64,000 nucleotides of DNA, taken from positions 22,836 to 86,835 of IMG/VR virus record IMGVR_UViG_3300030102_008089. The stretch is one strand, 5' to 3'. Positions within the stretch are counted from its first letter, which is position 1; the number at the start of each line of letters is the position of its first letter. The position numbers and the translations under genes were made by a program. The notes under the pieces are model-generated. The model saw nothing but the letters and a program-made list of their open reading frames with translations, was not told the origin of the DNA and ran no database searches. Source of the DNA: a virus. Of this stretch, positions 5,226 to 56,239 are shown piece by piece.

Positions 5226-6266
5226 ATGTCCGTAGACTTCAAAACTTTCGTGAGCCTAGCACCTTCAGTGAGTGCTGCTCGATTGCCTGTTCTTCTCCGT
5301 GGTCGTCACGGTATCGGTAAGAGTCAGGTTGTTTATCAATTGGCTGCCAACGCTGGGATGCCAGTAGTTGAGCGGCGTGCCAGCCAGATGACCGAGGGTG
5401 ACTTGGTTGGACTGCCCAGTGTTGAGGGCAATCGCACCAGCTTCAACCCTCCTGATTGGTTCAAGCAAGCTTGTGAAGAGCCTGTCTGCTTGTTCCTTGA
5501 TGAGGTTGACCGTGCTACCTTGGAAGTTCGCCAAGGGATCTTCGAACTGACCGACAGTCGTAAACTGAATGGTCACAACCTTCACCCTGATACGATCATC
5601 TTCGCTGCCGTCAACGGCGGGGAACATGGCGAGAACTACCAAGTGAATGAGATGGATCCTGCGGAACTTGACCGCTGGTCTGTCTGGGACATTGAGCCCA
5701 CGGTCGAGGACTGGTTGTCCTGGGCTAAGAACAATGTTGACGGTCTCATCTGGGACTTCATCAACCAAAACAGAAATCACCTTGAACACAACGGTGACAT
5801 CGAACCGAACAAGCGGTATCCCAGCCGTCGTAGTTGGGATCGCCTTGACAAGGTGCTCAAGCAGGCAGACGCTCTCGAAGCTTCTCCCGCAATGTTCAAC
5901 CTGGCTCAGAGCTTTGTCGGCTTCGAAGCTGCTGTGGCTCTCAACGACTTCGCCAAGAACTACGAGCGGGTTGTGACGGTCGAACAATTGCTCGAAGGTG
6001 AGCGAGTTGAAGCTCTGGCTGCCTTCTCTCTGAATGAACACTGCGCTATGATCGAAAAGGTGGAGGCTGAGGAAGTTCTCAAGGCTGAGATCTCTGAAGA
6101 ACACCTGATCAACCTTGCCAACTACTTCGTCACGCTGCCCAGCGAGGCTGCGATGAAGCTCTGGTCAGTCATCAGCCAAGCTGGTGTCCAAGAAAACGTG
6201 GTGAAGTTCCACGGTGCCAATGACGGCGCTGTCGGTAGCCACCTCTCCAAAATCCTGGGAGCCTAA
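5226..6266 (+). CDS. MoxR-type AAA+ ATPase
   Basis: A 346-residue ATPase. The P-loop is GRHGIGKS near residues 26-33; Walker B is CLFLDEVDRA near 87-96; a sensor-like asparagine lies in FAAVNGG. MoxR ATPases act as chaperones, usually paired with a VWA-domain partner, to insert metals or remodel complexes. The partner is very likely the next gene. Codon use is richer in G and C than in the glycan cluster, in keeping with strong early expression. A dedicated promoter precedes it and a terminator follows. Confidence 0.9.
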   Translation: MSVDFKTFVSLAPSVSAARLPVLLRGRHGIGKSQVVYQLAANAGMPVVERRASQMTEGDLVGLPSVEGNRTSFNPPDWFKQACEEPVCLFLDEVDRATLEVRQGIFELTDSRKLNGHNLHPDTIIFAAVNGGEHGENYQVNEMDPAELDRWSVWDIEPTVEDWLSWAKNNVDGLIWDFINQNRNHLEHNGDIEPNKRYPSRRSWDRLDKVLKQADALEASPAMFNLAQSFVGFEAAVALNDFAKNYERVVTVEQLLEGERVEALAAFSLNEHCAMIEKVEAEEVLKAEISEEHLINLANYFVTLPSEAAMKLWSVISQAGVQENVVKFHGANDGAVGSHLSKILGA

Positions 6267-6290
6267 CTCTCTCTCACATCCCAGGTCAGG

Positions 6291-6320
6291 AGCCCAGCCA
6301 AGTGCTGGGCTTTCTGTTTT
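6291..6320 (+). terminator. Intrinsic terminator after the MoxR gene
   Basis: AGCCCAGC at 6291-6298 pairs with GCTGGGCT at 6304-6311 around a five-base loop, followed by TTCTGTTTT. Confidence 0.85.
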
Positions 6321-6338
6321 GCGGGGACAAATAAAAAG

Positions 6339-6366
6339 TTGACAGATACTAGATCAATGGTAATAT
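6339..6366 (+). promoter_or_regulatory. Sigma70-like promoter for the VWA/metallopeptidase gene
   Basis: TTGACA at 6339-6344, a 16-base spacer and TAATAT at 6361-6366, followed by a GGAGAGAGGGA leader and ATG at 6388. The stretch from the -35 box is nearly a copy of the promoter at 5175. Confidence 0.85.
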
Positions 6367-6387
6367 ACTATTGGAGAGAGGGATAGA

Positions 6388-7569
6388 ATGAGCTTTGACC
6401 TTAAACTACATGCCTATCGCTTGCTAATGGATGAGCCGTTCTTTGCGGCTTTATCTCGCAAGATTGAGAAACGGGCTGACTACAATATTCCTACTGCTGG
6501 TGTTCGGGTAGATCCCGAGAGTGCCCAGTTCGAAATGGTTTATAACCCTGACTTCTTTGACAGCCTGCCTGAAGAGCAGGTCCGTGGAGTACTCAAGCAC
6601 GAGTTCTACCACTTGATCTTCGAGCACGTCACCAGCCGTAAGCCAGAGGGTGTCCCTCACAAGGCTTGGAACATCGCTGCTGACCTTGCAATTAACAGCC
6701 ATCTCCAAGGTGAACTGCCTGACAACTGCTGTATGCCAGGTGTCGCTCCCTTCGAAGACTTGCCATTGCATCAGACTGCTGAGTGGTACTTGGCTAACCT
6801 GCCCAAGAATGAAGAGGGTAACGAAAGTGGTAGCGGTGAAGGCGGTGAGGGCGAGGGTGAGCAGCCAGGCAACTTTGATGATCACTCTGGATGGGATGAC
6901 AACGCTGACAGCCCTCAACAGCAGGCAGCCAATCAGATGGCTAAGGAACGCCTGAAGAACGCAATGAAGGAAGCTGCCAAGGAAGCCAGCCAGTCTGCCA
7001 AGGGCTGGGGCTCAATGTCGGCGGAAGTAAAAGAAGAAATCTTAAAAAGACTAGAGAGTAAAGTAGACTGGCGCAAGGTGCTTCGCTACTTCATCAAGAC
7101 CAGTCAGCGTGCTAGCCGACGGTCCAGTGTCAAGCGGATTAACAAGCGGTATGCTTACATCCACCCTGGCAAGAAGGTCCAGCGCCAAGCTAAGATTGCC
7201 ATCGCCATCGACCAGTCAGGATCTGTCAGCAGTGAGATGCTGTCAGCCTTCTTCGGAGAACTGAACGGACTTGCCAAGCTCGCAGAGTTCACGGTGGTGC
7301 CCTTCGATACTCAGGTAGATGAAAGCAAGGTCTACGTCTGGAAGAAAGGACAGAGCAAAGCTGCTGAGCGTGTGCTCCACGGGGGTACGGATTTTGACGC
7401 TCCTACCAAGTATGTCAACGATAACAGCTTTGATGGCGTCATTATCCTGACGGATATGGAAGCTCCCAAGCCCAAGGCTTGCAAGGCTCAACGGATGTGG
7501 ATGACGGATGCCCGAGGTGCCAGCCGTCCCTACTTCAAGACCAACGAGAAGGTAATTCAAATCGACTAA
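6388..7569 (+). CDS. VWA-domain protein with N-terminal metallopeptidase-like domain (DUF2201 type)
   Basis: A 393-residue protein. Residues about 1-130 form a putative zinc metallopeptidase domain with LKHEFYHLIFEH (HExxH). A Gly/Glu-rich acidic linker follows at about 140-170. The C-terminal VWA-like domain begins near residue 270 with IAIDQSGSVSS, a MIDAS motif (DxSxS), and contains GGTDF. This architecture commonly sits beside MoxR ATPases and the two probably form a chaperone complex. Proteolysis is possible but unproven. Confidence 0.9.
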   Translation: MSFDLKLHAYRLLMDEPFFAALSRKIEKRADYNIPTAGVRVDPESAQFEMVYNPDFFDSLPEEQVRGVLKHEFYHLIFEHVTSRKPEGVPHKAWNIAADLAINSHLQGELPDNCCMPGVAPFEDLPLHQTAEWYLANLPKNEEGNESGSGEGGEGEGEQPGNFDDHSGWDDNADSPQQQAANQMAKERLKNAMKEAAKEASQSAKGWGSMSAEVKEEILKRLESKVDWRKVLRYFIKTSQRASRRSSVKRINKRYAYIHPGKKVQRQAKIAIAIDQSGSVSSEMLSAFFGELNGLAKLAEFTVVPFDTQVDESKVYVWKKGQSKAAERVLHGGTDFDAPTKYVNDNSFDGVIILTDMEAPKPKACKAQRMWMTDARGASRPYFKTNEKVIQID

Positions 7570-10483: not shown

Positions 10484-10673
10484 AATATCAGATCTGCGTA
10501 AAATTGTTAGAGAAATGATAAAAGAGGCAGCCGCAGAAGGCAAGATGCAGAAGATATACCGCAACTCTTATAAAAAAATGATCAGCAAAGCTTCTACTGG
10601 AGGCAACAAGAACACGCCACCATTCACTAAGAAAGCTGCAAAGCCTGGAAAGTCAGGATTGGGTCCTTTTTGA
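10473..10673 (+). CDS. Small virion-type protein with capsid-targeting-like N-terminus
   Basis: A 66-residue basic protein from ATG 10473, with AAGGAG upstream. The N-terminus IKISDLRKIVREMIKEA is an amphipathic helix ending in I-K-E, matching the (I/L)-x-E rule of the T4 prohead protease. Similar leaders occur in six genes after it. The remainder is Lys/Gly-rich (KAAKPGKSGLGPF) and disordered-looking. An internal head protein is inferred. Confidence 0.65.
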   Translation: MRIKISDLRKIVREMIKEAAAEGKMQKIYRNSYKKMISKASTGGNKNTPPFTKKAAKPGKSGLGPF

Positions 10674-10674
10674 G

Positions 10675-11499
10675 ATGGGATCTAATCATAAGTGGAAACA
10701 ATTTATTAATGAATCCGTTAAAGTATATGTCCACGGATATATAAAACCTTTAGCCGCTTTTCATACCCTACAAGAATGGGAAACACTTTTTGTCAATAAA
10801 ATTTTAAAGTTTCAAGAAGAAGGTAATTACGTTAGTCATGGACATGGTGAGCTTGTAGGACCTCAAGAACTTTTAGATTTAATAGAAGATTTTTACGGGT
10901 TCCAGCTAAATGTTGATGTAGATAGGTATGATTTGCTGACTCAGAAGAATGTACTTGATCATATTGAAGATTTTGTTAATCATAGATACTGGTCATTAGC
11001 TAATGAATTTGGACAATATTTTGACGACATCTCTGACCTTAAGTTTGCTTACTTTTATTCTCGTGGTGATCTAGAGCCATACGTCTTGGTTGACGAAACT
11101 TTTACCGAACAGATATATGGGTCTACTAATAATATTAAGACGCTCTATCATTACACGCACAAAGAAGGTGTAGACAGAATACAACGTGCCATTGAAAGCG
11201 GGGATCCATTTGATATTTCTGCATACACAATGGCAAAGCGAGACTTCTTCCGTCAAAAATCAAATCTGATAATGGAGTTTGAGGGGAATGTCAGAGCAGG
11301 CTTCCGTAGTGATGTTAAATCTTATTCTGTCAGTAATGGTCGGAAGTGTGTAAATCTACACAGACTTGGATACCCTGGCAAAGGAAAAGATAATCTCTGC
11401 ACTGACTTAGAGAACGATTGCAATGGAGAATTAAAGACTTCCCTGTGGAATGAATTTATTGTAACTCCTGTAAAGATTTTAGAAGTTTATGAAAAATGA
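10675..11499 (+). CDS. Tagged protein with ADP-ribosyltransferase-like C-terminal part
   Basis: A 274-residue protein whose N-terminus HKWKQFINES resembles the WRKFLKE tag of the downstream genes and T4 internal-protein leaders; FINE gives an I-x-E site. From about residue 160 the segment TLYHYTHKEGVDRI resembles the Y-H-Y-T strand that opens many phage and toxin ADP-ribosyltransferase domains. The catalytic glutamate cannot be placed with confidence; the end, LWNEFIVTPVKIL, is a typical closing strand. Its stop overlaps the next start. Confidence 0.65.
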   Translation: MGSNHKWKQFINESVKVYVHGYIKPLAAFHTLQEWETLFVNKILKFQEEGNYVSHGHGELVGPQELLDLIEDFYGFQLNVDVDRYDLLTQKNVLDHIEDFVNHRYWSLANEFGQYFDDISDLKFAYFYSRGDLEPYVLVDETFTEQIYGSTNNIKTLYHYTHKEGVDRIQRAIESGDPFDISAYTMAKRDFFRQKSNLIMEFEGNVRAGFRSDVKSYSVSNGRKCVNLHRLGYPGKGKDNLCTDLENDCNGELKTSLWNEFIVTPVKILEVYEK

Positions 11500-12209
11500 G
11501 AGACCTGCTCAAGAAAATGATAATGGAAGAAATTATCAGAGGCAGAGCCCTTGACCGCTATGCCACTATGGCTAGCAGAGAAACCATAGACGCTATCAAG
11601 AATGAAGCAGTCAGGGAAGCCTTCAATACTAATGGCAGGGCTGACTTCGCACTGGACGTTCCAGAAATTACAGACGATATAGACTACTTGAGAACAATTA
11701 TTATTAGGCTCCGTGAGGGCGACTATGTTGCTGCTGATGGTTCGTATGAATTTGATTTGGATGCTGATGACGAACAGCGTAAGACTTCCGACATTTATGT
11801 AAACATTACTCTGCCTCCTCGGTATGATGAAGATTATTCTTTTATGTCCCGCTTGGTTGCCGAGTTGAAGGAGACCTTCCGTCACGAGTTAGAACACAGT
11901 TCCCAGAGCACCGAGGAGTTGATGGCTGTACAGCGAGCAGTCCCAGACCGAGAGGTATGGAAAGACTTGGAGACAGCGGAGGATTATTACCTTTCTGATG
12001 CCGAGGTGAAGGCTCATGTGGCGGGCATCTACAAAAAGGCAAAGAGTTTCCGAAAGCCCGCTACAAATGTGTTGGAGCGAGTTTTAAATGTTATATATAA
12101 CACTGGCTTATACTACAATCACGACCCTGCAAAACTTGCAGAGTTGATGGAAAAGATACAAAGCCGCTGGGCGAACTATTTATTTAAGCGATATCGGAGG
12201 GCTAGATAA
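11496..12209 (+). CDS. Tagged putative zinc metalloprotease
   Basis: A 237-residue protein. The N-terminal helix RDLLKKMIMEEIIRGRA contains I-M-E, consistent with prohead-protease processing. At about residues 128-134 the sequence FRHELEHSSQ has an HExxH zinc-binding motif, followed by acidic segments that could supply the third ligand. It probably acts as a peptidase or a structural metalloprotein. The start overlaps the ART-like gene and the stop overlaps the next ATG. Confidence 0.65.
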   Translation: MRDLLKKMIMEEIIRGRALDRYATMASRETIDAIKNEAVREAFNTNGRADFALDVPEITDDIDYLRTIIIRLREGDYVAADGSYEFDLDADDEQRKTSDIYVNITLPPRYDEDYSFMSRLVAELKETFRHELEHSSQSTEELMAVQRAVPDREVWKDLETAEDYYLSDAEVKAHVAGIYKKAKSFRKPATNVLERVLNVIYNTGLYYNHDPAKLAELMEKIQSRWANYLFKRYRRAR

Positions 12210-13075
12210 TGAGCCATAAAATCCTAATGGAAAACTGGAGAAACTTTATTAGTAAGGAAAACTCCCAAAAGGATGTTTTAAACGAACAAGAAGGTGGGAG
12301 CTTTTTTAATCCAGACATCCCACTTAAATTAAGTGATGTTGACCCTGAGAAAGCAAAGAAGGTTGCTACTTCTGGGCGTAAGGACGGGGATGAGAACGAT
12401 GACGACATTAAAGCTGACTACAAGCCCGATGGCGTAGCTCCTGTTGGGAAATTAAAACCTTCTCAATCTAGTATGAACATTGAAAAAGCCTTGGCTTTTG
12501 TTTTGAATATGTTAAATCCAGATCACGAACTGCAAGCTGGCGGTGACCTGGAGGCTTTAATCAGCAAGGATCGATTTATAATGGACGGACACCATCGATG
12601 GATTGCTACAGCAATGATTGACCCTACGCTTAAAGTTGGCGGCTATTTAGTTCAGTTTCCTGCCAAACAATTAGTGGCTGTTTTAAACACGATGACAAAA
12701 GGTCTTTTTGGTCAGATGCAAGGAAATGAAGCCACAGGAGGATTTGAACAATTTAAACCTGGACCAATGAAAAAGCAGTTAATGCAATATTTAAATGCTG
12801 GTGTCTGGCAAATGAAACCAGAGGATGTTACGCAGGTTTTACAGAAATTTACAGGGTCACAGGAATCTGGAGAAGGTTTGGTAGATTTAGCCGTGGCTAA
12901 AATGGTCTCTAATCTAAAAGGTATCTCACTAGCTGTTCCCTCTTGGGCGGCCGAAAGAGAAGATATGCCAGTCATTGATAAACCAAATGTACCAAAAGCG
13001 GCAAAAGCTTTGAACACTGGAGAGGTTGATTGGAACCAGCCTTTAGCCGCCAATAGAAAAGAAAAAAATAAATAA
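12209..13075 (+). CDS. Tagged DGHHR-motif protein (ParB/Srx-like), paralogue 1
   Basis: A 288-residue protein. The tag ILMENWRNFISKE is nearly identical to that of the next two genes. The core has PVGKLKPSQSSM followed by FIMDGHHRWIATAMID at about residues 122-137. The GHHR box and the preceding 'L.PSQ' strand recall the ParB/sulfiredoxin-like fold, which can hydrolyse nucleotides or nick DNA. The C-terminus ends with a Lys-rich tail. Paralogue 2 follows after 11 bases. Confidence 0.7.
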   Translation: MSHKILMENWRNFISKENSQKDVLNEQEGGSFFNPDIPLKLSDVDPEKAKKVATSGRKDGDENDDDIKADYKPDGVAPVGKLKPSQSSMNIEKALAFVLNMLNPDHELQAGGDLEALISKDRFIMDGHHRWIATAMIDPTLKVGGYLVQFPAKQLVAVLNTMTKGLFGQMQGNEATGGFEQFKPGPMKKQLMQYLNAGVWQMKPEDVTQVLQKFTGSQESGEGLVDLAVAKMVSNLKGISLAVPSWAAEREDMPVIDKPNVPKAAKALNTGEVDWNQPLAANRKEKNK

Positions 13076-13086
13076 AGGGATATTTT

Positions 13087-13980
13087 ATGAAACTGTTGAT
13101 GGAAAATTGGAGAAAGTTTCTTAAGGAAGAGAAAGGTTCAGATCCAGAACAACAAAGAACTTTAAAAAACCTTTTAAACAAAAAGTATTCTTCTTTTGTG
13201 GATGGGCTTGAGAAACAAGTAAAAGATCCAAAGTTTGCTAACTTTTTAAGTATGGGGCTTAAACCAGATGATGGTGACGGACGAGACGACATCATAGCTG
13301 TTAGAAAAACAGCCATTCCCGTTAAGAAGTTACTTCCCACACAAAGTCAGATAGGATTAGCAGATTCTCTAGGGTGGATTAGCGAAAACAAGCCACAAGC
13401 TGCTGGAGAGTATGCAAAATTAACAGGTGGAAGTGCCGCTGATGTTGGTGGCAGAATTATAACAGCCAATGGAAAACATATTGTTGATGGACACCACAGG
13501 TGGTCACAGGTTTACTTACTAAATCCAGAGGCTAGTATACCAGTTTATGATTTTACTGTATCTGATAGTATGCCCGCTGAAGATCGTGGGAAGGCAGCAC
13601 TCAAATTAGCTCACCTTGCAATTGCTGCTGTTGACAAAGCGGTACCGCTTGTGGCTGCTGATGCCGCAACCGATATTTATGCAACGCAAGGAGATGAAAA
13701 CAAAATTAAACAAATATTAAACAAGACCATAAGTGATGAGATGGTAAAATCTTTATCAGATGCTTATGGTGTTTCTTCTAGAGATGAGGTGGTAAACAAA
13801 GTAACTAATAATGCCTTGTCTCTTTATAAGGGCACTAAGGCTGCCGCAGCCAAAGGACCAGAACGTGGTGAGATGCCACAAACAGCAGGAACTCCCGATT
13901 TTGGAGACACTGACCCTCTAGATAAAATGAAAGCTATGAGGGCAGGTTCTGTTAATTGGAAGACTCCCTCTGGGGAGTAG
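13087..13980 (+). CDS. Tagged DGHHR-motif protein (ParB/Srx-like), paralogue 2
   Basis: A 297-residue protein with tag MKLLMENWRKFLKEE. It shares with paralogue 1 the sequence order LPTQSQIGLAD (paralogue 1 LKPSQSSMNIEK), then HIVDGHHRWSQVYLLNPEA, and the same C-terminal ending in which G-x-V-(D/N)-W precedes the tail (GSVNWKTP versus GEVDWNQP). Overall identity is low, so the duplication is old or the two were acquired separately. A ParB-like nucleotide- or DNA-handling role after injection is inferred. Confidence 0.7.
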   Translation: MKLLMENWRKFLKEEKGSDPEQQRTLKNLLNKKYSSFVDGLEKQVKDPKFANFLSMGLKPDDGDGRDDIIAVRKTAIPVKKLLPTQSQIGLADSLGWISENKPQAAGEYAKLTGGSAADVGGRIITANGKHIVDGHHRWSQVYLLNPEASIPVYDFTVSDSMPAEDRGKAALKLAHLAIAAVDKAVPLVAADAATDIYATQGDENKIKQILNKTISDEMVKSLSDAYGVSSRDEVVNKVTNNALSLYKGTKAAAAKGPERGEMPQTAGTPDFGDTDPLDKMKAMRAGSVNWKTPSGE

Positions 13981-15077: not shown

Positions 15078-15377
15078 ATGAAAATTACAAAAACCTTATT
15101 GAGAAAGATTATCAAAGAGGAAATCCTCAAAGAATACGGCATGGAGCAAGACTTCGAAAAGGGTATGAGAGTTACTTTTAATAAATTAGAGAAAGTAATT
15201 AAGACAACTGCTAGCGGAAAACAAAAAGTAGATTATGTTAGAATGCCTATGGAAGGTATCATTGTCGCAGAGCCTATGATAGACAGAACTTCTGCTGAAC
15301 CAGGCTACGCTGAAGTAAAAGTAGATGGTGAACCAGATACCATAACAATTAGAATAGCCGAACTCAGACCAGCGTAA
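15078..15377 (+). CDS. Small tagged protein
   Basis: A 99-residue protein directly abutting the ART-like gene. The leader KITKTLLRKIIKEEILKEYG is an amphipathic helix with I-K-E and L-K-E sites, a leader type frequent in virion proteins of marine phages. The rest is beta-rich (GMRVTFNKLEK, EVKVDGEPDTITIRI). Its function is unknown; it is the last tagged gene of the cassette. Confidence 0.7.
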   Translation: MKITKTLLRKIIKEEILKEYGMEQDFEKGMRVTFNKLEKVIKTTASGKQKVDYVRMPMEGIIVAEPMIDRTSAEPGYAEVKVDGEPDTITIRIAELRPA

Positions 15378-15405: not shown

Positions 15406-16599
15406 ATGAGTATTTTTCGTGAACACAAGACAATTGCCGATCGAGCAGCCAGCGACAGAAGCCGCCATAGGCAAAAGATTGAAAAAGCAATAAAAGAAAG
15501 TATTCGGGACGTTGTTGCCGAGGAAAGTATTATTGGACAAAGCGGAAAAAAGAAAATAAGAATACCTGTCAAGGGAATAAAAGAACATCGTCTTGTGTAT
15601 GGATCAAATGAAAATAATAAACAAGTGGGTTCAGCCCAAGGTAAAGATATTACCAAAGGGCAAAGAATAGGACACAGAAGAAGAACCAAACCTCAACAAG
15701 GAAAAGAAGACAAGCCTGGAGACAAACCAGGGGAAGAAATGTATGAGATAGAGATGTCGCTAGAAGAGCTAGCAGGATACCTCTTTAATGACCTAGAACT
15801 ACCAGAACTAGAGAAGAAAAATTTTAAATTTACAACCCAGGAAAAGTTTAAAAGAAAAGGCAAAAGACCATATGGTATCCGACCACGCCTATCAAAAAAA
15901 GAAACCATAAAACAAAAGATCAAAAGAAAAAAAGCAGCTATTAAAGCTGGAACTTATAACCCTGAAGAGGATGACAGATTTTCTTTTCACGAAAGCGATC
16001 TTAGGTACAAGCACATAGCGCCCGTCCAGAAAGAAAACACTGCCGCTGTTGTTTTCTTTGTAATGGATGTCTCTGGGTCTATGACCAAATCTAAGAAATT
16101 TTTAGCTCGTAGTTTTTTCTTTCTTTTATATCAATTTTTAAACCATAAATATTCTTCAGTTGATGTTGTTTTCATATCTCACACGGCAGATGCTCACGAA
16201 GTAAATGAAGAACAGTTTTTCACTCAGGTCCCAAACGGTGGAACTTTAGTATCTACAGGACTTAAAAAAACTGAGGAAATTATTGAAAAACGTTATCATC
16301 CGAATAACTGGAATATTTACACGTTTTATTGCGGCGATGGAGATAACTGGAGTATTGATAACAAAGAAGCGTTAGCTGCCTTCAGAAGACTAAAAGAAAT
16401 TAATCAACTAATGTGTTATACGGAAATTGGAAGACTTGTTGATTACAGAGAGTATAGTTTGTTTGCGGGCGGAACAGTAGAGAAAAAACTATGGGACTGG
16501 ACAAAACTCGTAGAGGATAAAATGTTTAAAAGAGTACGCCTAGAAGAACACTCTGATATATGGCCTTCTTTCAAAAAATTGTTTGGAGGGAAAAACTAA
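15406..16599 (+). CDS. yeaH: YeaH-like VWA protein (DUF444)
   Basis: A 397-residue protein of the DUF444/YeaH family (E. coli YeaH about 427). The N-terminus IFREHKTIADRAASDRSRHR and the middle HESDLRYKH are family signatures. The VWA domain begins VVFFVMDVSGSMTKS, with an intact MIDAS (DxSxS), followed by VFISHTADAHEV and PNGGTLVSTGL. In enterobacteria yeaG(prkA)-yeaH is a stress operon, with ycgB (spoVR) functionally linked. Here all three are adjacent, with YeaH first; the stop overlaps the spoVR ATG. Confidence 0.95.
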   Translation: MSIFREHKTIADRAASDRSRHRQKIEKAIKESIRDVVAEESIIGQSGKKKIRIPVKGIKEHRLVYGSNENNKQVGSAQGKDITKGQRIGHRRRTKPQQGKEDKPGDKPGEEMYEIEMSLEELAGYLFNDLELPELEKKNFKFTTQEKFKRKGKRPYGIRPRLSKKETIKQKIKRKKAAIKAGTYNPEEDDRFSFHESDLRYKHIAPVQKENTAAVVFFVMDVSGSMTKSKKFLARSFFFLLYQFLNHKYSSVDVVFISHTADAHEVNEEQFFTQVPNGGTLVSTGLKKTEEIIEKRYHPNNWNIYTFYCGDGDNWSIDNKEALAAFRRLKEINQLMCYTEIGRLVDYREYSLFAGGTVEKKLWDWTKLVEDKMFKRVRLEEHSDIWPSFKKLFGGKN

Positions 16600-17915
16600 T
16601 GCCTGATTGGTCTTTAAGTGAGTTGCAAGAATGGGATGAAAAAATATGTTCTCTGGGAGAAGCTTTAAACCTTGACTGGTATCCTATCGAGTATGAAATT
16701 TGTGACTACAAAGAAATGATTGGACATATGGCTTACACTGGGTTACCTACCCATTACCGTCACTGGTCTTTTGGCAAATCTTTTGATAGAATACAGACAG
16801 AATATAATCTTGGAATGTCTGGGCTTCCTTATGAGATGATCATAAATTCAAATCCTAGTATCTCATATTTAATGACAGAAAACCCAATGCCAACACACAT
16901 ATTAACAATGGCTCACTGTGTGGGTCACTCTGATTTTTTCAAGAACAACAGGATGTTTTCTGAGACTGGCGCTGACACCGTTATTGATAGTTTCAAGGCG
17001 TCAGGAAGAAGAGTTAAGAAATATATTGAAGACCCAAATATAGGAATTGAAAAGGTAGAAAGAATTCTAGATGCTTGCCATGCAATTAGATTTCAAGTTC
17101 CTAGAACCCCTGGTGTTAAAAGAAGAAACCATAAACAACTTAAAAAGTATTATCAGGAATTAATCAGACAAGATGTCACTGGCTGGTGGGCGACTCATTT
17201 TAATATTAACAAAATACCTTTGGAGCCAGATTGTAATTTGCTTGGCTTTATCGCAACTCACAGTAATCTAGAGGAATGGGAAAAAGATTTAGTCTCTATT
17301 GTTGAAAAAGAATCAAAGTATTTTGTACCACAAGCGTATACAAAAATAATGAATGAAGGCTGGGCTTGTTTAATTCACGAAAAAATAATTCAAGCACTTA
17401 ATCTGCCCGATGACTATTATTTATCTTTTATACGTCTTCATAACCAAGTTGTTCGACCTCATCTCGGAAGGATTAATCCTTACCATCTTGGGTACAAAAT
17501 CTTCAGACACATTGAGGATAACTTGGGGTTTGAAGAGTGTCTAAGAGCAAGAGAGACACACAATGACGAAACGTTTATTAAACATTACCTAACTCAAGAG
17601 TTGTGCGAAGAGCTTAATTTGTTTAGTTTTTCTTTTCACAGGAGGGATGGCTATAATCGCATTACAGAAATTTCATCCGAAGAAACGTGGAGAACTGTTC
17701 GTGACGACCTAATTAAGAATGTAGGGCTTAATGGCGTTCCTGTGGTTTTAGTTAAAGAATTGAAAAAAGATGGTACTTTAATTCTAGAACATGAACACGA
17801 CGGTAGAGACTTAGAGCTTTCGCAAGCTAATAAAGTCTTTGAACACATTAACGACCTATGGAGCGGTGATATAAGATTTACAACAGTTATCGAAGACGAG
17901 GCTTGGGAGTTTTAA
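16599..17915 (+). CDS. spoVR: SpoVR family protein
   Basis: A 438-residue homologue of B. subtilis SpoVR and E. coli YcgB (about 470-510). Signatures include LDWYPIEYEICDYKEMIGHMAY, split here as LDWYPIEYEICDY and EMIGHMAYTG, then LPTHYRHWSFGKSF, TMAHCVGHSDFFKNN and NEGWACLIHEKI. The biochemical function is unsettled; it acts with PrkA and YeaH in sporulation and starvation responses. The start at 16599 overlaps the yeaH stop, and prkA begins two bases after its end, so the three are co-translated. Confidence 0.95.
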   Translation: MPDWSLSELQEWDEKICSLGEALNLDWYPIEYEICDYKEMIGHMAYTGLPTHYRHWSFGKSFDRIQTEYNLGMSGLPYEMIINSNPSISYLMTENPMPTHILTMAHCVGHSDFFKNNRMFSETGADTVIDSFKASGRRVKKYIEDPNIGIEKVERILDACHAIRFQVPRTPGVKRRNHKQLKKYYQELIRQDVTGWWATHFNINKIPLEPDCNLLGFIATHSNLEEWEKDLVSIVEKESKYFVPQAYTKIMNEGWACLIHEKIIQALNLPDDYYLSFIRLHNQVVRPHLGRINPYHLGYKIFRHIEDNLGFEECLRARETHNDETFIKHYLTQELCEELNLFSFSFHRRDGYNRITEISSEETWRTVRDDLIKNVGLNGVPVVLVKELKKDGTLILEHEHDGRDLELSQANKVFEHINDLWSGDIRFTTVIEDEAWEF

Positions 17916-17916
17916 A

Positions 17917-19857
17917 ATGGCAAACAAAAAATCTGATCGTTTTCTCAAGTTAATTGGAAAACACAACGAAAAGAAAAAGAAAGAAAAATTTAGTGGTTCT
18001 TTTGAGGATTATTTAAGGATCCTAGAGAATGACACAACTATTACAAAATTAGCCCACAAAAGACTATACGATTCAATAGTTGAAAGTGGTATAACAAAAT
18101 TGAGCCAAACAGATGAAAGATGCAACAAGCTTTTTGGTGGCGAAGAATTAAGAACCTATGATTATTTCCAAGACAAGTTTTTTGGAATGGAAAGATCTTT
18201 AGCAAAGATTATGCGTTTCTTGCGGTCTGCATCGCTTAAGGGCGAAGAGAGCCGTCAGGTTCTTTTATTGTTGGGTCCTGTTGGTGCTGGCAAGTCTGCA
18301 CTTATGGAGCACATCAAAAGATCACTAGAAGACTCAGAACCAATGTATCATCTTGATGGGTGCCCAATTAACGAGGAGCCACTACACCTAATTCCTAGAT
18401 CACTAAGGTCCGACTTTGAAAAACTATACGGCATTAAAATTGAGGGTGATTTATGTCCTGTCTGTCGCTATAGATTGAAAGAAGAATTTAATAATGACTA
18501 TTTAAAGTTTCCTGTAGCTCAGTCTTCTTTTTCTGTACGAGGACGCCGTGGTGTTGGAGTTGTTCCTCCAATGGATGCAAATAGTCAAGATGTGACTGTT
18601 TTAGTCGGCAGCGAAGACATTTCAAAACTTGACCTTTATTCTGAAGATGATCCAAGAGTTCTGTCTTTAAATGGTGCCTTTAATGTCGGCAATAGAGGTA
18701 TAGTTGAATTTGTAGAAGTGTTTAAAAATGAGATTGAATTTTTGCACACGATGATTACCGCAACACAGGAAAAAGCCGTACCATCACCAGGTAAAGGTCC
18801 AATGATTTATTTTGATGGGGTAATTTTAGCTCATTGTAACGAAGCTGAATGGAACAAGTTTAAATCTGAAAACACAAACGAAGCTATCTTAGACAGAATT
18901 GTAAGAGTTAATGTTCCTTATTGTCTAGAAGTATCTGAGGAAGTTAAAATATATAACAAAATGTTGGGACTCTCTGACTTTGATGGACACATAGCGCCAC
19001 ACACTCTTGAGGTTGCTGCAATGTTTGCAGTGTTAAGTCGCCTGCACCCCTCTAATAAAGTTGATGCTTTGACCAAGATGAAACTATATGATGGACAAGA
19101 TGTTATAGAAAGAGGGTCTGTTAAAAAAATAGACATAAATGATCTTAGAGACGAAGCAAGAGACGAAGGGATGACAGGAATTTCAACCCGCTTCATAATG
19201 AAGGCTATTGATAGTGCCTTATCAGATAGTGAAAAAAATATGGTAACTCCAATTTCAATAAGGGATTCATTAATAAAGCAAGTTAAGGATCAAATAGTTG
19301 TAGAAGATGATAGGAACAGGTACCTAGACTTTCTAGGAAAGACCTTGCACGATGAATATCTAAACATTCTTGAGAAAGAAATTACAAAAGCCTTTGTCTC
19401 TGCTTATGACGAACAGGCGGAGTCGCTTTTCAACAATTATCTTGACCACGCCGAAGCATATGTCAATATGACAAATGTAAAAGACTCAGTAACTAACGAA
19501 GAGATAGCTCCCGATGAAAAATTTATGCTCTCTATTGAAGAACAAATAGGAATTACGGGTACAGCAAGAGAAAACTTTAGAGTTGACATAACAGCGTTTA
19601 TGTTTTCTAAACTCAGAAGAGGTGAGACTGTAGACTGGAAATCATATGCCCCACTAAAAGAAGCTATTGAGAGCAAGTTAACCTCTTCTGTTAAGCAAAT
19701 TTCTAGAATTGTAACAAAATCTAAGAGCAGAGATAAGAAACAACAAGGAAAGTATAACGAAATGTTACAGACTCTGATTGATGAGTACGGATATAATGAG
19801 GAATCAGCAGAGGAAGTAATCAAGTTTGCCTCTAATAATCTCTGGAGAGACAGTTAG
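17917..19857 (+). CDS. prkA: PrkA/YeaG serine protein kinase
   Basis: A 646-residue AAA+-like protein kinase, full length compared with E. coli YeaG (644). Residues about 15-40 have the family opening FEDYLRILENDTTITKLAHKR (given here only in part as FEDYLRILE). The P-loop is LLGPVGAGKS near residue 118-127, and the CPVCRY segment near 190 is a typical PrkA zinc-like knuckle. The C-terminal kinase-like domain is present. PrkA phosphorylates stress targets and in some species shows protease activity. It closes the yeaH-spoVR-prkA operon. Confidence 0.95.
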   Translation: MANKKSDRFLKLIGKHNEKKKKEKFSGSFEDYLRILENDTTITKLAHKRLYDSIVESGITKLSQTDERCNKLFGGEELRTYDYFQDKFFGMERSLAKIMRFLRSASLKGEESRQVLLLLGPVGAGKSALMEHIKRSLEDSEPMYHLDGCPINEEPLHLIPRSLRSDFEKLYGIKIEGDLCPVCRYRLKEEFNNDYLKFPVAQSSFSVRGRRGVGVVPPMDANSQDVTVLVGSEDISKLDLYSEDDPRVLSLNGAFNVGNRGIVEFVEVFKNEIEFLHTMITATQEKAVPSPGKGPMIYFDGVILAHCNEAEWNKFKSENTNEAILDRIVRVNVPYCLEVSEEVKIYNKMLGLSDFDGHIAPHTLEVAAMFAVLSRLHPSNKVDALTKMKLYDGQDVIERGSVKKIDINDLRDEARDEGMTGISTRFIMKAIDSALSDSEKNMVTPISIRDSLIKQVKDQIVVEDDRNRYLDFLGKTLHDEYLNILEKEITKAFVSAYDEQAESLFNNYLDHAEAYVNMTNVKDSVTNEEIAPDEKFMLSIEEQIGITGTARENFRVDITAFMFSKLRRGETVDWKSYAPLKEAIESKLTSSVKQISRIVTKSKSRDKKQQGKYNEMLQTLIDEYGYNEESAEEVIKFASNNLWRDS

Positions 19858-19868
19858 ATTCAGTTTTT

Positions 19869-20846
19869 ATGAAAAAACTACCAGATTCGTTAAACAAGCT
19901 TTCAAAATTGGTTGGTGATACGCCCCTATTAGTAATTTCTTGCCGTTTTGAAGGCAAAAACATTGATATCTATGCAAAATATGAAGCATGGAACTATTCT
20001 GGAAGTATAAAAGACCGAATGGCACTGCAAATTTTGCAGAATGCATATTTTATTGGTGCGATATCTGAAAAAGATACTATTGTTGAGGCAACTAGCGGGA
20101 ACACAGGTATAGCATTTGCTGCAATGGGTGCATATTTAGGTCACCCTGTCGAAATCTACATGCCAGATTGGCTTTCTGAAGAAAGAAAAAAGCTTTTGAG
20201 GTTTTATGGCGCAAAATTATATGAAATAAGTGCTGAAAATGGTGGTTTTACTAAATGTATTGAACTCGCAACTAAAAAATCATCAAAAAAAGGCTATTTT
20301 TGTCCAAAACAGTTCGAAAATTCGAGTAATGTCTTAGCACACTATAAAAACACAGCCCCAGAGATGGATATGTGTTTTTTAAGAAATAATATTAATAAAA
20401 TTGATGCTTTTGTCACTGGTGCTGGCACTGGAGGTACAATTATGGGCTTTTATAGGTATTTTTCCGAAAAAAACAAGCATTTTCAAGCACATCCTGTATT
20501 TCCAGTCAATAATAGTGATGGAGGGCACAGAATTGAAGGTATTGGTGATAGTTTTGTCCCACAGATACTTTGTTTGGACGAGTTAGAACATATTATTAGG
20601 ATATCTGACAATAGTGCAATAAATGTGGCACGACTTCTAAATAAAAAAGGTCTTTCGGTTGGTATCTCGTCTGGGGCCAATCTATTAGCTGCATTAATCA
20701 AAAGAAATGATATGTGTGAAGGGTCTATTGTCGCAACTATCCTTTGCGATGACAATAAGAAATACTTATCAACTGATTTATTTTCTGATACAAATGAAAG
20801 CTTAGATTATGATTTACAAATTATAGACTATAAAGTTTTGACATAA
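19869..20846 (+). CDS. Cysteine synthase-like PLP enzyme
   Basis: A 325-residue fold-type II PLP enzyme. LVGDTPLLVI opens the family fold. The PLP lysine is in NYSGSIKDRMAL, TSGNTGIAFA binds the substrate carboxylate, GAGTGGTIMGF is the phosphate loop and SVGISSGANLLAAL is near the C-terminus. It would form cysteine from O-acetylserine or a related substrate; cystathionine beta-synthase-like activity is an alternative. It sits 11 bases after prkA and may be a metabolic helper gene supplying cysteine or sulfide. Confidence 0.9.
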   Translation: MKKLPDSLNKLSKLVGDTPLLVISCRFEGKNIDIYAKYEAWNYSGSIKDRMALQILQNAYFIGAISEKDTIVEATSGNTGIAFAAMGAYLGHPVEIYMPDWLSEERKKLLRFYGAKLYEISAENGGFTKCIELATKKSSKKGYFCPKQFENSSNVLAHYKNTAPEMDMCFLRNNINKIDAFVTGAGTGGTIMGFYRYFSEKNKHFQAHPVFPVNNSDGGHRIEGIGDSFVPQILCLDELEHIIRISDNSAINVARLLNKKGLSVGISSGANLLAALIKRNDMCEGSIVATILCDDNKKYLSTDLFSDTNESLDYDLQIIDYKVLT

Positions 20847-24503: not shown

Positions 24504-25049
24504 ATGAATAAAGATTTAGACAGTAAAAAATTAATGTATTCTAAGGGCAATAACGACGAATGTTATACGCCCGATTATGGTGTTGAGCCTATTCTAGAAT
24601 TTATTCCCGAGGATGCAATTGTTTGGTGTCCATTTGATGATGAATCCAGCGAGTTTGTAAAGCAAATCTCAAAACAAAATATTGTTGTACATTCTCATAT
24701 TAAAGATGGAAAAGATTTTTTTGAGTACGAGCCCGAAAAATGGGATGTAATTATTTCTAATCCACCGTTTACAAATAAGCGAAAGTTTTTTGAAAGAGCC
24801 TTGTCTTTTGGAAAACCGTTTGCTTTGATTATGACTAATACTTGGCTCAATGATTCAGCACCTAAGCAGCTATTCAAAGAAAAAGACTTACAACTTTTAA
24901 TGTTTGATAAACGTATGAAGTTTATTTCCCCAGATGGACGAGATAATAATAAGATTACTTTTAGCAGTAGTTATTATTGTTGGAACTTCCTGCCCAAACA
25001 AATTATTATGAAAGAATTAAATGTTAAGGGTTCTCGGAAAAATTCCTAG
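24504..25049 (+). CDS. Phage methyltransferase with NPPF motif
   Basis: A 181-residue protein. ATG 24504 is preferred over TTG 24501 for its spacing to GGAGG. The catalytic motif IV is VIISNPPFTNKRKFF, typical of N6-adenine or related amino-methyltransferases; the SAM-binding region is probably IVWCPFDDESSEFV, an atypical motif I seen in phage versions. The substrate could be DNA or tRNA adenine. The end overlaps tilS by 29 bases. Confidence 0.8.
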   Translation: MNKDLDSKKLMYSKGNNDECYTPDYGVEPILEFIPEDAIVWCPFDDESSEFVKQISKQNIVVHSHIKDGKDFFEYEPEKWDVIISNPPFTNKRKFFERALSFGKPFALIMTNTWLNDSAPKQLFKEKDLQLLMFDKRMKFISPDGRDNNKITFSSSYYCWNFLPKQIIMKELNVKGSRKNS

Positions 25050-25626
25050 AGAGGTCATTGTCGCTGTCAGCGGCGGACCAGACTCTATGGCTATCTTAGA
25101 TTTCCTCAGTAATAATCATAAGGTTACTGCTGCCTACTTTGATCACGGCACTCAGTTTGGAGAAGATTGTAAATATTTCGTAAAAGACTTTTGCGAAGAG
25201 CGGGATATTGACTTGGTTGTAGGTAATATTTATTTTGATTGTCCGCCCGAAAAGTCAACAGAAGAACATTGGCGTGATGAGCGTTATAGATTCTTCCGTA
25301 CCTTTAATGATCAGATTGTTACAGGACACAATTTAGACGATGTGATTGAGTGGTTTTTATTCTCTTCTTTACACGGACACGGGAAAGTTATGCCCTATAA
25401 GAACGGAAACGTTATTAGACCGTTTATCTCCACCTCTAAGCGTTCTCTAGAAGATTGGTGCGAGCGTAAGGATGTTCCGTTTATGGTTGACCCAGGGAAC
25501 AAAGATAGAAAGTTTATGAGAAGCATTATCAGAAACGATATGATGCCTCATGCTCGCAAGGTAAACAAAGGCATCGAAAAAACATTTAAAAAAATGGTTG
25601 AAAGGGATTATAATCTTTTATATTAA
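25021..25626 (+). CDS. tilS: tRNA(Ile)-lysidine synthetase
   Basis: A 201-residue N-type ATP pyrophosphatase. VAVSGGPDSMAILDFL is the PP-loop. AYFDHGTQFGEDC, EEHWRDERYRFF and VTGHNLDDVIEWFLF follow in the TilS order, then RPFISTSKRSLEDWC and FMRSIIRNDMMP. Only the catalytic N-terminal domain is present; the C-terminal domains of E. coli TilS (432 residues) are missing. It converts C34 of tRNA-Ile(CAT) to lysidine. Its stop codon touches the first base of a CAT tRNA, a strong functional clue. Confidence 0.92.
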   Translation: MLRVLGKIPREVIVAVSGGPDSMAILDFLSNNHKVTAAYFDHGTQFGEDCKYFVKDFCEERDIDLVVGNIYFDCPPEKSTEEHWRDERYRFFRTFNDQIVTGHNLDDVIEWFLFSSLHGHGKVMPYKNGNVIRPFISTSKRSLEDWCERKDVPFMVDPGNKDRKFMRSIIRNDMMPHARKVNKGIEKTFKKMVERDYNLLY

Positions 25627-29062: not shown

Positions 29063-29151
29063 ATGAAGATGGGTCCTTTACAATAGGAAAAGTTGGAAAA
29101 AAAGGCGGACAATTAAACTTTAAAACTGGCAAATGGGAAGAACTTAATTAA
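29059..29151 (+). CDS. Gly/Lys-rich microprotein, 30 residues
   Basis: ATG overlaps the preceding TGA. The sequence DGSFTIGKVGKKGGQLNFKT, then GKWEEL, forms short beta-like turns. It also overlaps the 3' end of the convergent lipoprotein gene by eight bases. Support is the coupled start; no family is known. Confidence 0.5.
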   Translation: MNEDGSFTIGKVGKKGGQLNFKTGKWEELN

Positions 29152-30400
29152 TACAGAGATCTTCGAATATTTGTCGAATCTGTCGAAAGACAGTTTCTGA
29201 ATTCGCTGTTGGAGTGTGCAACCTTCCTTGTTCTCCTCGAACCATCCCTAAAAATGAGTTATGATGTTCAGGGAGCGAAAACACAAATATTTCAAATCCT
29301 TGATCAAGAGCATAAGAATTTACATCTAACACTGTCTGTTCTGTAATTGTTTGTGCAATCTCATCTGTCATTAGAATTATTACTTTTTGGCTTCCTGAAT
29401 TCCAAGCGAAAGGATAAGTTCCATTCATTGACCAAAGTGTTGCGTCTATCGATGGCTCAATACCGCCATCATCCATAAGTTGCATAGCTTGTAAATATTC
29501 TAAGAATTCATCGGCAGGAACAAAGTTTGTTACCATCTCAGAATGTCGAGTGGTTGGTGGCTCAGATGCTCCACTGTCCTGCCTGCCTATGACAGCAAGA
29601 CCAAAGCGAAAATTACTCGTTATTGGGTCGTCTAAAAGCGGAGTGATCCCTTCTATCATCGATGTGATCTCATCTTCAAAAGATCCAGAAATATCGATAA
29701 CAAAAACCAGATCCACACCACGGGTATCAAATCCCTCATCTACTTCGCCATCACAATCATTATCAAGGTTGTCACATATCTCCTCTACTGGGACAACCTG
29801 TCCGTCACAAGGTCCATCAAATCCACCATCTTGACAATAACGAACACCTGCACGGCACTCGCCTATAGCCATTGTTCCATCAGGACCATCATAACAAACA
29901 ATCGCAGTTGTATTAGCGACACCCTCGTCCACTGAACCATCACAATTGTTATCTAGACCGTCGCAAACCTCCTCTGATGGTCCAGTATGTCCATCGCAAT
30001 ACAATCCCCCATTATCACACTTCATTACGCCTGGTGTACAAACTCCAACACCATAATCAGCACCCTCAACAAAGCCACACAATTGATGCTGTTCTGGAAA
30101 AGTGTCGTCAATTACCGAATTACAGTCATTATCTATTCCATCACATATTTCTTCCGAAGGTCCAATGGCTCCTCTACAATCTGACCACCCGTCGAAACTA
30201 CAAGTTCTAGTCCCATAATTACAAATTCCCGCTCTTTTAGGAGGATCATTAGGGTCTAGTGAATCAAATACTTGACCATTGTGGTCACAAATTTGGATAG
30301 TACCAGGGGTGCATTCTAAAGGGACCAGTTGGTCGTCGTCTATACAGGACTGACAGGATGCTAAACTCAGGGAAACAAAAAATAAAACCCACCGTTTCAT
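29144..30400 (-). CDS. Secreted lipoprotein with three metal-binding repeats and a VWA domain
   Basis: A 418-residue protein. VLFFVSLSLASC is a lipoprotein signal with lipobox LASC. Three repeats, EEICDGIDNDCNSVIDD, EEVCDGLDNNCDGSVDE and EEICDNLDNDCDGEVDE, are the 'putative metal-binding motif' (CDGxDNDCDGxxDE) common in Myxococcota and related bacteria. From about residue 228 a VWA domain begins DLVFVIDISGSFEDE with an intact MIDAS. Many cysteines imply disulfides, so it acts outside the cytoplasm. Virion decoration or a host-surface role are both possible. It is one of few minus-strand genes. Confidence 0.88.
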   Translation of the reverse strand: MKRWVLFFVSLSLASCQSCIDDDQLVPLECTPGTIQICDHNGQVFDSLDPNDPPKRAGICNYGTRTCSFDGWSDCRGAIGPSEEICDGIDNDCNSVIDDTFPEQHQLCGFVEGADYGVGVCTPGVMKCDNGGLYCDGHTGPSEEVCDGLDNNCDGSVDEGVANTTAIVCYDGPDGTMAIGECRAGVRYCQDGGFDGPCDGQVVPVEEICDNLDNDCDGEVDEGFDTRGVDLVFVIDISGSFEDEITSMIEGITPLLDDPITSNFRFGLAVIGRQDSGASEPPTTRHSEMVTNFVPADEFLEYLQAMQLMDDGGIEPSIDATLWSMNGTYPFAWNSGSQKVIILMTDEIAQTITEQTVLDVNSYALDQGFEIFVFSLPEHHNSFLGMVRGEQGRLHTPTANSETVFRQIRQIFEDLCIN

Positions 30401-36226: not shown

Positions 36227-36551
36227 GGGGGTAAACGGTATCGATTGATGGGAAAGTAGAAAAGGTGCAAGGGTGAGGGAAGCGTGGCTCACGAAAAACG
36301 CTTAAAACTTTAATCGCCAATGACGATTTCGAAATGGAGATGGCAGCTTAAAAACCTGACCTCCCATGAGGCGACGGCAGCCGATAAACAGAAAGCCGTA
36401 TTTGGGTGTCTTAAGTGCTTTTGATTGTTATAGCCGCAATAAAACGATCTAGTCAAGCGGGCTGTCTGACGATAAAAACAGACCTAACCTTGTGAATGAC
36501 CCTTCTATGGAACTAGACAAGACGGGAGTTCGATTCTCCCTACCTCCACCA
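36227..36551 (+). ncRNA. ssrA: tmRNA
   Basis: The 5' end GGGGGTA pairs with TACCTCC next to the 3' ACCA, and the T-arm GGGAG/CTCCC with loop TTCGATT completes the tRNA-like half. The tag-coding frame at 36316-36351 begins GCC and reads ANDDFEMEMAA then TAA, a typical AND...AA tag for trans-translation. Length is about 325 nt, with pseudoknot-like regions after the tag. It rescues stalled ribosomes with SmpB. No smpB is seen, so host SmpB would be used. Confidence 0.96.
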
Positions 36552-39446: not shown

Positions 39447-40709
39447 TTGTCCGATAAAAAAATTACAGTTTTGACAATTAGTGACCATCCGCTGCTTCCC
39501 TCTGGTGTCGGAACCCAAACTAAATATGTTATTGAGGCGTTATTAAGGAGTGGAAAGTTTAATGTAATTTCTATGGCTGGTGCAATAAAACACCATGATT
39601 ATACACCAAAAAGAGTAGAAGGATATCCAGGGAATTGGGAGATATTTCCTGTAGACAATTATGGGAATAAAGAGATTGTAACAAAATTTCTTATGGAAAG
39701 AAAACCAGATATTTTGTATTTTATGACAGATCCTCGTTTTTACGGCTGGTTATGGGAAATGGAGGATTATATACGTCCATTGGTGCCAATGGTCTACTAT
39801 CACGTTTGGGATAATTATCCTCATCCTCATTTTAATGCAAGATTTTATGAATCCAATGATATTATAGCTACTATTTCAAAGGTTACAAGTGATATTGTGA
39901 AAACGGTATCTCCTAGTGTTGAAGAACATTACGTTCCTCACGCTGTAGATTCAAAAATTTTCTACAAAAGAAGAGATAAAGTTTACCAAGAACTCCTCAA
40001 TCAAAATCCAGCGTTCAAGGATAGGTTTGTGTTTTTTTGGAACAATAGAAACGCAAGAAGAAAACAAACTGGCAGTTTAATTTTTTGGTTTAAGGAATTC
40101 TTAGAACTTGAGGAAGTTGATAGGGATAAAGTTTGTTTGTTTTTACATACTGACCCTCAAGATCCGCACGGACAACCAGTAGAATTTCTAATAGATGAAT
40201 TAGGGTTTAATGAAAATGAAATAATCCTTTCCAAGAACAAACTTAACCCAGAACACTTATCGTTGCTTTATTGTGTTTCTGACTGTACAATAAATATTTC
40301 AGATGCCGAGGGTTTTGGACTGGCAACATTAGAATCGCTATCGTGTGAAACACCAATCATTGTTAATATGACAGGTGGACTACAAGAACAGGTAACAGAT
40401 GGAAAAAATTGGTTTGGGATTGGTATAGAACCAACCTCTAAAGCAGTTATAGGGTCTCAGCAGGTTCCATATATTTATGAGGATAGAATTTGTAAAGAGG
40501 ATTTTCATAACGCTTTGTTAAAAATGTACAATATGCCCAAAGAAGAGAGAGAAAAGCTTGGGAAACTAGGGAAAGAACACGTTGATAAAAATTATAATTT
40601 TGACAGTTTTTCCACCCAGTGGGTTAATTTAATGACAGATACTTACAATAAACATGGCTCTTGGGACACTAGAAAAAATCATAACAATTTTAGGGTGGAA
40701 GAAGTATGA
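39447..40709 (+). CDS. GT4-type glycosyltransferase
   Basis: A 420-residue GT-B enzyme starting at TTG 39447 after AGGAGG. LTISDHPLLPSGVGTQTKYV is the N-terminal acceptor-side opening. The C-terminal half has FFWNNRNARRKQTGSL, then ISDAEGFGLATLESLSCETPII, the E-x(7)-E signature of retaining GT4 transferases. It is the first gene of a glycan synthesis operon continuing to 58881, with overlapping genes throughout. The sugar donor is unknown. Confidence 0.9.
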   Translation: MSDKKITVLTISDHPLLPSGVGTQTKYVIEALLRSGKFNVISMAGAIKHHDYTPKRVEGYPGNWEIFPVDNYGNKEIVTKFLMERKPDILYFMTDPRFYGWLWEMEDYIRPLVPMVYYHVWDNYPHPHFNARFYESNDIIATISKVTSDIVKTVSPSVEEHYVPHAVDSKIFYKRRDKVYQELLNQNPAFKDRFVFFWNNRNARRKQTGSLIFWFKEFLELEEVDRDKVCLFLHTDPQDPHGQPVEFLIDELGFNENEIILSKNKLNPEHLSLLYCVSDCTINISDAEGFGLATLESLSCETPIIVNMTGGLQEQVTDGKNWFGIGIEPTSKAVIGSQQVPYIYEDRICKEDFHNALLKMYNMPKEEREKLGKLGKEHVDKNYNFDSFSTQWVNLMTDTYNKHGSWDTRKNHNNFRVEEV

Positions 40710-43641: not shown

Positions 43642-44524
43642 CAATGTAAATTTTAACTCTAACTCTGGTCCAAATTCTTTTGGTAAAAGACTGGCAAATG
43701 AGTTAGTAACTACAGGACACCAGATAAACGGACAAAACCCTGATATACAGCTATCTTTTATTCAAGCAACACATAAAAGTTTTCCGCTAGTTTTAAGATT
43801 AGATGGCATTTATTTTAACTCCAAGCAAAACTGGGAACAATTAAACCTACCAATTAAGCAAACATTTCAGATAGCTGATGGTGTTATATATCAATCAAAA
43901 TTTAATCAAGTGTTGACAGAAAAATATTTTGGTGGCAAAGAAAAATCTTCTGTCATAAATAACGGCACCAACCTAAACTTAATAAATAGTATAGAACCAT
44001 TAGAGCATAAATTTTTTGAAAGTTTTGATAAAATTTGGTGTTGTGCTTCAAACTGGCGTCCCCACAAAAGACTAAAAGAAAATGTAAGATATTTTCTAGA
44101 ACATAGTTCAGAGAAAGATTGTTTAATTGTTGCGGGAGATAATCCTGATTACAATATTAAGCACGAACGCATTTTCTACGCTGGTAATTTGCCGTGGGAG
44201 GGCTTAATAGCACTCTATAAGAGATCTGAGTATTTTTTACATCTTGCTCTTCTAGATCATTGTCCAAATGTCGTGGTGGATGCTCGTGCGAGCGGCTGCA
44301 AGATTGTGTGTGCATCCAGCGGAGGAACAAAAGAAGTAATATCAAAGGGAGATATTATTATAGAAGACAAGGAATGGGATTATGAACCGTTTGAACTATA
44401 TAAGCCACCTAGTTTAGATTTTTCTAACTATACTTTATCAGAAAATCAAATTAGCATAGACATCAAAGATGTGGCTACGAAGTATTTAGATTTTTTTAAC
44501 AATGTTTTGGCAGGATTAAAGTGA
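43625..44524 (+). CDS. GT4-like glycosyltransferase
   Basis: A 299-residue GT-B enzyme. NILFDNVNFNSNSGPNSFGK at the start and CCASNWRPHKRLKENV in the middle are typical of the fold. HLALLDHCPNVVVDARASGCKIVCASSGGTKE is the donor site, given only in part. It is shorter than full GT4 enzymes because the N-terminal domain is reduced. It overlaps the next GTG start. Confidence 0.85.
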   Translation: MNILFDNVNFNSNSGPNSFGKRLANELVTTGHQINGQNPDIQLSFIQATHKSFPLVLRLDGIYFNSKQNWEQLNLPIKQTFQIADGVIYQSKFNQVLTEKYFGGKEKSSVINNGTNLNLINSIEPLEHKFFESFDKIWCCASNWRPHKRLKENVRYFLEHSSEKDCLIVAGDNPDYNIKHERIFYAGNLPWEGLIALYKRSEYFLHLALLDHCPNVVVDARASGCKIVCASSGGTKEVISKGDIIIEDKEWDYEPFELYKPPSLDFSNYTLSENQISIDIKDVATKYLDFFNNVLAGLK

Positions 44525-48663: not shown

Positions 48664-48664
48664 A

Positions 48665-49582: not shown

Positions 49583-49626
49583 AAGTTTAAACCATTTAGT
49601 GTATACTAACCTGGGAGGCATTTTAA

Positions 49627-50553: not shown

Positions 50554-50562
50554 GAAAACAAA

Positions 50563-55395: not shown

Positions 55396-55405
55396 GAACA
55401 CGAAC

Positions 55406-56236: not shown

Positions 56237-56239
56237 AAA

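Follow-up and report, generated by a model that had tools for sequence, protein, structure and literature searches.

PrkA, YeaH and SpoVR are stress proteins found widely among bacteria, where the three are functionally linked (PMC4664914, PMC10954441), and in starved E. coli YeaG and YeaH jointly act as a "metabolic brake" (PMC10954441). Parts of this trio are already known from phages: i) the record annotation of Thermus phage YS40 already includes SpoVR and a "serine kinase"; ii) in Ralstonia phage RsoM2USA, ORF28 is SpoVR and ORF30 is PrkA (PMC8504454); iii) SpoVR was found in marine viromes and interpreted as a sporulation AMG (PMC8940887). A related viral theme is the MoxR/VWA chaperone pair, in which, as in the trio, an AAA+ ATPase and a MIDAS-VWA partner are encoded together: in jumbo phages such a pair has been proposed to act in virion assembly, and one is cited for tail assembly in the Acidianus two-tailed virus (PMC7824862).

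Here we analyzed a 64,000-nt stretch of viral DNA (the window; bases 22,836-86,835 of a 127,433-bp virus record, IMGVR_UViG_3300030102_008089) that carries all three genes. Compared with the bacterial operon (E. coli yeaGH plus ycgB; Bacillus prkA-yhbH and spoVR), the locus encodes the same three families at full length in adjacent genes, with the MIDAS and Walker A motifs intact; on the other hand, its order is rotated to yeaH-spoVR-prkA from the bacterial prkA-yeaH-spoVR, identity is only about 30-39% (window PrkA against the sampled bacterial PrkA), and its SpoVR has 438 aa versus 510 in E. coli. Whereas the ocean report named spoVR and not PrkA, SpoVR in the window is one of three inseparable genes; and unlike the AAA+ partner of MoxR/VWA pairs, PrkA is from another AAA+ family and has a C-terminal domain of its own; SpoVR is without counterpart there. 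The open-access papers searched did not describe the full trio as a module conserved in phages, nor did they note its phage-specific order or report that it was captured repeatedly, and three features are apparently unreported: the phage-specific gene order, the putative uptake of the trio by three or more lineages of phages and its travel as one accessory cassette.

The trio and its phage record

The sequence-only reading had claimed a complete, full-length trio with coupled junctions and intact active motifs inside phage genes, and each of these points was borne out. Pfam matches extend over the full length of three translationally coupled plus-strand genes: YeaH/DUF444, a VWA (MIDAS) protein (15406-16599; 397 aa; DUF444, 4.8e-104), SpoVR (16599-17915; 438 aa; SpoVR, 3.4e-119, and SpoVR_C, 3.4e-08) and PrkA/YeaG, an AAA+ ATPase with a PrkA C-terminal domain (17917-19857; 646 aa; AAA_PrkA, 8.3e-144, and PrkA, 4.1e-79). 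Given these E-values and the presence of the same trio in 80/80 relatives that span the locus, a chance match is excluded. At the first junction (GGAGGGAAAAACTAATG) the yeaH stop TAA and the SpoVR ATG overlap by 1 nt (TAATG), preceded by a good ribosome-binding motif (GGAGG-like, plus strand, 16586-16592, by direct reading of the sequence). Because of this overlap behind the motif, and because many homologues start at the same point, SpoVR most likely begins at 16599 rather than at 16560. At the second junction, also read directly, the PrkA ATG lies 1 nt past the SpoVR stop.

The motifs of all three proteins are preserved. The YeaH MIDAS (D221-x-S223-x-S225/T280/D311) is intact, with its residues conserved in 38 phage homologues, and so is the PrkA P-loop GPVGAGKS, whose Walker A lysine (K126) is invariant. 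In SpoVR, H106, H110 and E253 are invariant across the phage clade, and the SpoVR domain, SpoVR_C and the conserved G-H and NEG motifs are all present. On either side of the trio lie genes that are clade-specific neighbours: a 99-aa ORF just 5' of yeaH (15078-15377, plus strand; 9/70 non-redundant loci), and, 11 nt past prkA, a PLP-dependent, cysteine-synthase-like enzyme (19869-20846, plus strand; Pfam PALP, 2.4e-55; 10/70), which is outside the conserved module.

The source of the window is a large contractile-tailed phage. Its record encodes, outside the window, a baseplate wedge protein (phrog_219, 1.4e-18; phrog_10646, 9.9e-22) and a full-length GroEL (locus L219, record bases 10611-12197; phrog_5725, 1.5e-142), and within the window PhoH, an M23 tail-type peptidase, an exonuclease, seven tRNAs and a tmRNA. 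A PHROG search of the record, in which the capsid search was without a ringing control, gave no major capsid or terminase match, which may mean that part of the record is missing or that these two proteins are too diverged. A second AAA+/VWA pair, composed of a MoxR-like ATPase and a metallopeptidase-VWA protein (DUF2201), is located at 5226-7569 on the plus strand (AAA_5, 9.4e-10; DUF2201_N, 1.6e-26; DUF2201, 3e-12).

Several other features of the window were recorded. About 19 consecutive genes at 39447-58881 were named, from their sequences, as glycosyltransferases, NDP-sugar epimerases/dehydrogenases and formyl-/methyltransferase-like proteins, which would form a large cluster for surface sugar or for DNA or virion glycosylation; a GDP-mannose-dehydratase-like gene at 814-1794 was named in the same way. 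The tmRNA (36227-36551; ARAGORN; Rfam RF00023, 85 bits) carries the tag ANDDFEMEMAA, from which the usual LAA ending is absent, and a PP-loop (TilS-like) tRNA-modification enzyme (25021-25626) lies between two tRNA clusters. Two tandem related proteins of 288 and 297 aa (12209-13980) have weak similarity to phrog_2859 and a common DGHHRW motif. On the minus strand, a secreted-looking protein at 29144-30400 combines MopE-type metal-binding repeats with a VWA domain, which is unusual for a phage and a possible clue to the host.

Distribution, gene order and ancestry

A scan of IMG/VR with PrkA yielded 153 relatives, of which the best 80, together with one match from a genome collection, were examined. 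Among these, the order was yeaH-spoVR-prkA in all 80 clade loci that span the trio, with yeaH and spoVR mostly overlapping by 1-8 nt and a short gap then leading to prkA; overall, well over a hundred other viral sequences carry the trio. Across the 70 non-redundant loci, even the commonest gene besides the trio is shared by only 30. Pairwise distances of YeaH, SpoVR and PrkA are strongly correlated (Mantel r 0.86-0.91; 0/999 permutations), and pN/pS against five relatives is 0.095-0.19, with synonymous sites near saturation. Within the clade the three genes are under purifying selection, jointly inherited and inseparable.

Beyond the clade, looking for the trio in other phages, as the sequence-only reading had proposed, recovered it in cultured Thermus phages and in huge phages. 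The Thermus phages YS40, phiLo, MN1 and Lalka27a have all three genes in the rotated order of the window clade (YS40 with one extra gene between spoVR and prkA), yet they form a separate deep lineage from that clade in all three trees. The huge phages LR745206, LR756502, LR756504 and LR756511, with Ralstonia phage RsoM2USA, also bear PrkA, YeaH and SpoVR, in the bacterial order prkA-yeaH-spoVR wherever the huge-phage genes are close together. Phage copies thus occupy four places in the trees: i) the window clade; ii) the Thermus phages; iii) the LR745206-type huge phages, which fall among Pseudomonadota-type sequences; and iv) LR756511, which falls with Bdellovibrionota. In contrast to the window, the sequences of the huge-phage/RsoM2USA group are of Pseudomonadota type (three) or Bdellovibrionota type (one), which points to separate captures. 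Taken together, the trees suggest that the trio was captured by at least three phage lineages, a number given only as a minimum because rooting of the trees is insecure and the window clade has moderate support (77) in the PrkA tree.

On the bacterial side, all three-gene loci sampled (Bdellovibrionota; alpha-, beta- and gammaproteobacterial plasmids) have the order prkA-yeaH-spoVR. Since this sampling comprised one phylum, E. coli and plasmids, the donor could be unsampled. A peptide-pattern scan of 84,980 species genomes, which reaches close relatives only, found no close bacterial donor; its sole match was a phage-like contig (L082, PBIO01000025.1) binned in a Halobacteriovorax MAG. That MAG carries, besides the phage trio on L082, a separate bacterial prkA-yeaH elsewhere. 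With only about 30-39% identity to the sampled bacterial proteins and a different order, the window trio was not copied recently from a host operon.

Two other sets of sequences were handled separately. A second IMG/VR set mostly has the order prkA-yeaH-spoVR, and in the tree many of its members intermix with bacteria, one being of E. coli type; these may be bacterial fragments or host flanks, and only the LR745206-type huge-phage clade was counted as phage. The yeaGH of "Enterobacter phage LAU1" (MN688132.1) was rejected as a phage trio: the genome, deposited as "complete", opens with an E. coli-type yeaG-yeaH that is apparently a host flank. The window locus itself is a form of the bacterial PrkA-YeaH-SpoVR stress module that phages have rearranged and made their own.

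Genomic context and candidate functions

The trio occurs in several genomic settings. At ~17 loci it directly follows the major capsid gene, a head-tail adaptor and two further genes, with the tail sheath then coming next in several contigs. At ~28 loci a diverged GroEL-like gene is nearby, usually directly 3' of prkA, often with PhoH; one such protein near prkA (L042, 11935-13260) is very diverged, with phrog_5725 at 1.1e-13 and no Pfam match. At other loci, including the window, neither head genes nor a GroEL-like gene adjoins the trio. Among 80 capsid-anchored relatives listed there were at least two complete trios and at least one cut trio, a listing that shows the existence of trio-less relatives and says nothing of how common they are; in L137 (78% capsid identity) the trio is absent and the neck gene stands directly before the sheath. 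Because relatives with the same head genes are without it, the trio is accessory, and it moves as one cassette between genomic contexts. A GroEL-anchored scan gave only three close loci and was uninformative. The bacterial operon is characterised by starvation induction (through NtrC, RpoS or a sporulation sigma factor); in a promoter scan here, promoter-like sites were at chance level.

Predicted structures bear on the biochemistry. The YeaH fold matches VWA/MIDAS domains, including those of Rea1/MDN1-MIDAS and NorQD. Rea1/MDN1-MIDAS works with an AAA+ ring. PrkA is related to the solved chain 9xip (E = 3.9e-101), among others. The SpoVR model (pLDDT 85, pTM 0.84) had one BFVD match and no PDB fold match at E<=0.001; its weak matches to metallopeptidases fell short of significance and were set aside. 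In B. subtilis, SpoVR is reported to bind RNA in vivo (PMC12456014). From these models the trio is likely to combine an AAA+ ATPase (PrkA) and a VWA/MIDAS adaptor (YeaH) with SpoVR as a third member.

Residues of PrkA speak to the kinase question. Mutants of E. coli YeaG identified three residues as needed for function, K116, R232 and K426 (PMC4664914). The equivalent of K116, the Walker A lysine, is K in 30/30 clade PrkAs and in all sequences compared. The equivalent of K426, the "serine kinase" lysine, is likewise K in 30/30, whereas other bona fide PrkAs have D or N there, so the kinase assignment of the PrkA family is uncertain. The equivalent of R232, in the AAA+ domain, is S in 30/30; as it is S in Bacillus and Paenibacillus too, R232 is not family-defining.

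We favour, tentatively and at somewhat less than even confidence, a host-directed "metabolic brake" (quiescence) over a late machine for virion assembly. The module would be made during infection, probably in its late half in some phages. By family knowledge and structure, PrkA would form an ATP-driven AAA+ ring, YeaH would dock targets via its MIDAS site, and SpoVR would serve as a third subunit with conserved His/Glu residues; together they would remodel and/or phosphorylate host proteins, shifting the infected cell to a quiet, stress-resistant state like the one that YeaG and YeaH bring about in E. coli during starvation. A host that grows slowly or starves would thereby be kept alive until the phage finishes, regardless of expression of the host's own copy. 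Seizure or mimicry of the host stress kinase for control of host dormancy, as the sequence-only reading proposed, is likewise only a candidate role. The metabolic-brake reading is placed first because the trio is an accessory cassette that moves between contexts and has its homologue in a physiology module; accessory status, with same-head relatives that do without the trio, fits a host-directed gene better than a core gene of virion assembly. Also in its favour are the complete coupled trio in one order, the correlated distances, the low pN/pS, the retention of K116 and K426, and the several phage lineages that took all three genes rather than one. Several points stand against it: i) E. coli R232 is S in the clade, and the kinase lysine is not family-wide; ii) host quiescence is without obvious use to a lytic phage; iii) in several phages the trio sits among capsid, neck, tail, terminase or chaperonin genes, and some of these contexts suggest late protein remodelling equally well.

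The third point leads to a serious rival, though in our judgement an unlikely reading: the trio as a late-acting machine, MoxR-VWA-like and working beside phage GroEL, that remodels proteins as virions assemble or mature. It is taken seriously because of the late-gene and chaperonin neighbours and the MoxR/metallopeptidase-VWA pair: the ~17 loci behind capsid and adaptor genes (several with the sheath next) and the ~28 with a GroEL-like gene close by are joined by Lalka27a, where the trio lies between a minor head protein and TerL, and YS40, where it is three genes from TerL, and the window phage has both its own GroEL and an AAA+/VWA pair of the type described in PMC7824862. The resemblance of the YeaH model to Rea1/MDN1-MIDAS and NorQD VWA domains is consistent with such a role. 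However, relatives that share the capsid, adaptor and sheath genes have no trio at that place (L137 is an example), the trio proteins stay conserved where the virion genes of the context differ, and no head gene adjoins the trio in the window. A wider form of this proposal, in which the trio is a machine that remodels proteins generally, driven by ATP and including a new fold in SpoVR, and in which phages have repurposed this machine for late assembly or maturation alongside GroEL and MoxR-VWA, seems to us doubtful.

We consider it quite improbable that the trio guards the infected cell against other phages or host defence (superinfection exclusion or counter-defence): an accessory cassette with varied placement and with neighbours that differ among phages would suit such a role, but none of the three proteins matched PADLOC-DB, no defence genes were recognised adjoining the trio, and the papers searched held no precedent. 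That a host operon was passively acquired not long ago, or the misassembled bacterial contig that the sequence-only reading had named as its own possible undoing, is refuted for the window locus, however common the bacterial homologues and despite the LAU1 example, whose record has an E. coli-type yeaGH right at its end, by 80 loci with phage neighbours in the same rotated order, the low bacterial identity and a single species-genome match that is itself phage-like. The other objection raised by the sequence-only reading, absence of the trio from all related phages, does not hold either.

For reports of viral spoVR these results call for caution: since the two partners with which it travels are likewise present in bacteria that form no spores, such as E. 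coli, viral spoVR should not be taken as evidence of virus-induced sporulation and need not concern spores. If the wider remodelling-machine proposal were true, it would show what this module, so far known from stress and sporulation phenotypes alone, does at the molecular level. The Thermus phages, which have the same gene order and are in culture, offer a fast and genetically simple assay system. Returning to the trio as a whole, whether metabolic brake or otherwise, if several phage lineages acquired all of it and retained it under selection, then it must be useful in infection, and the range of purposes it may serve there is narrowed.
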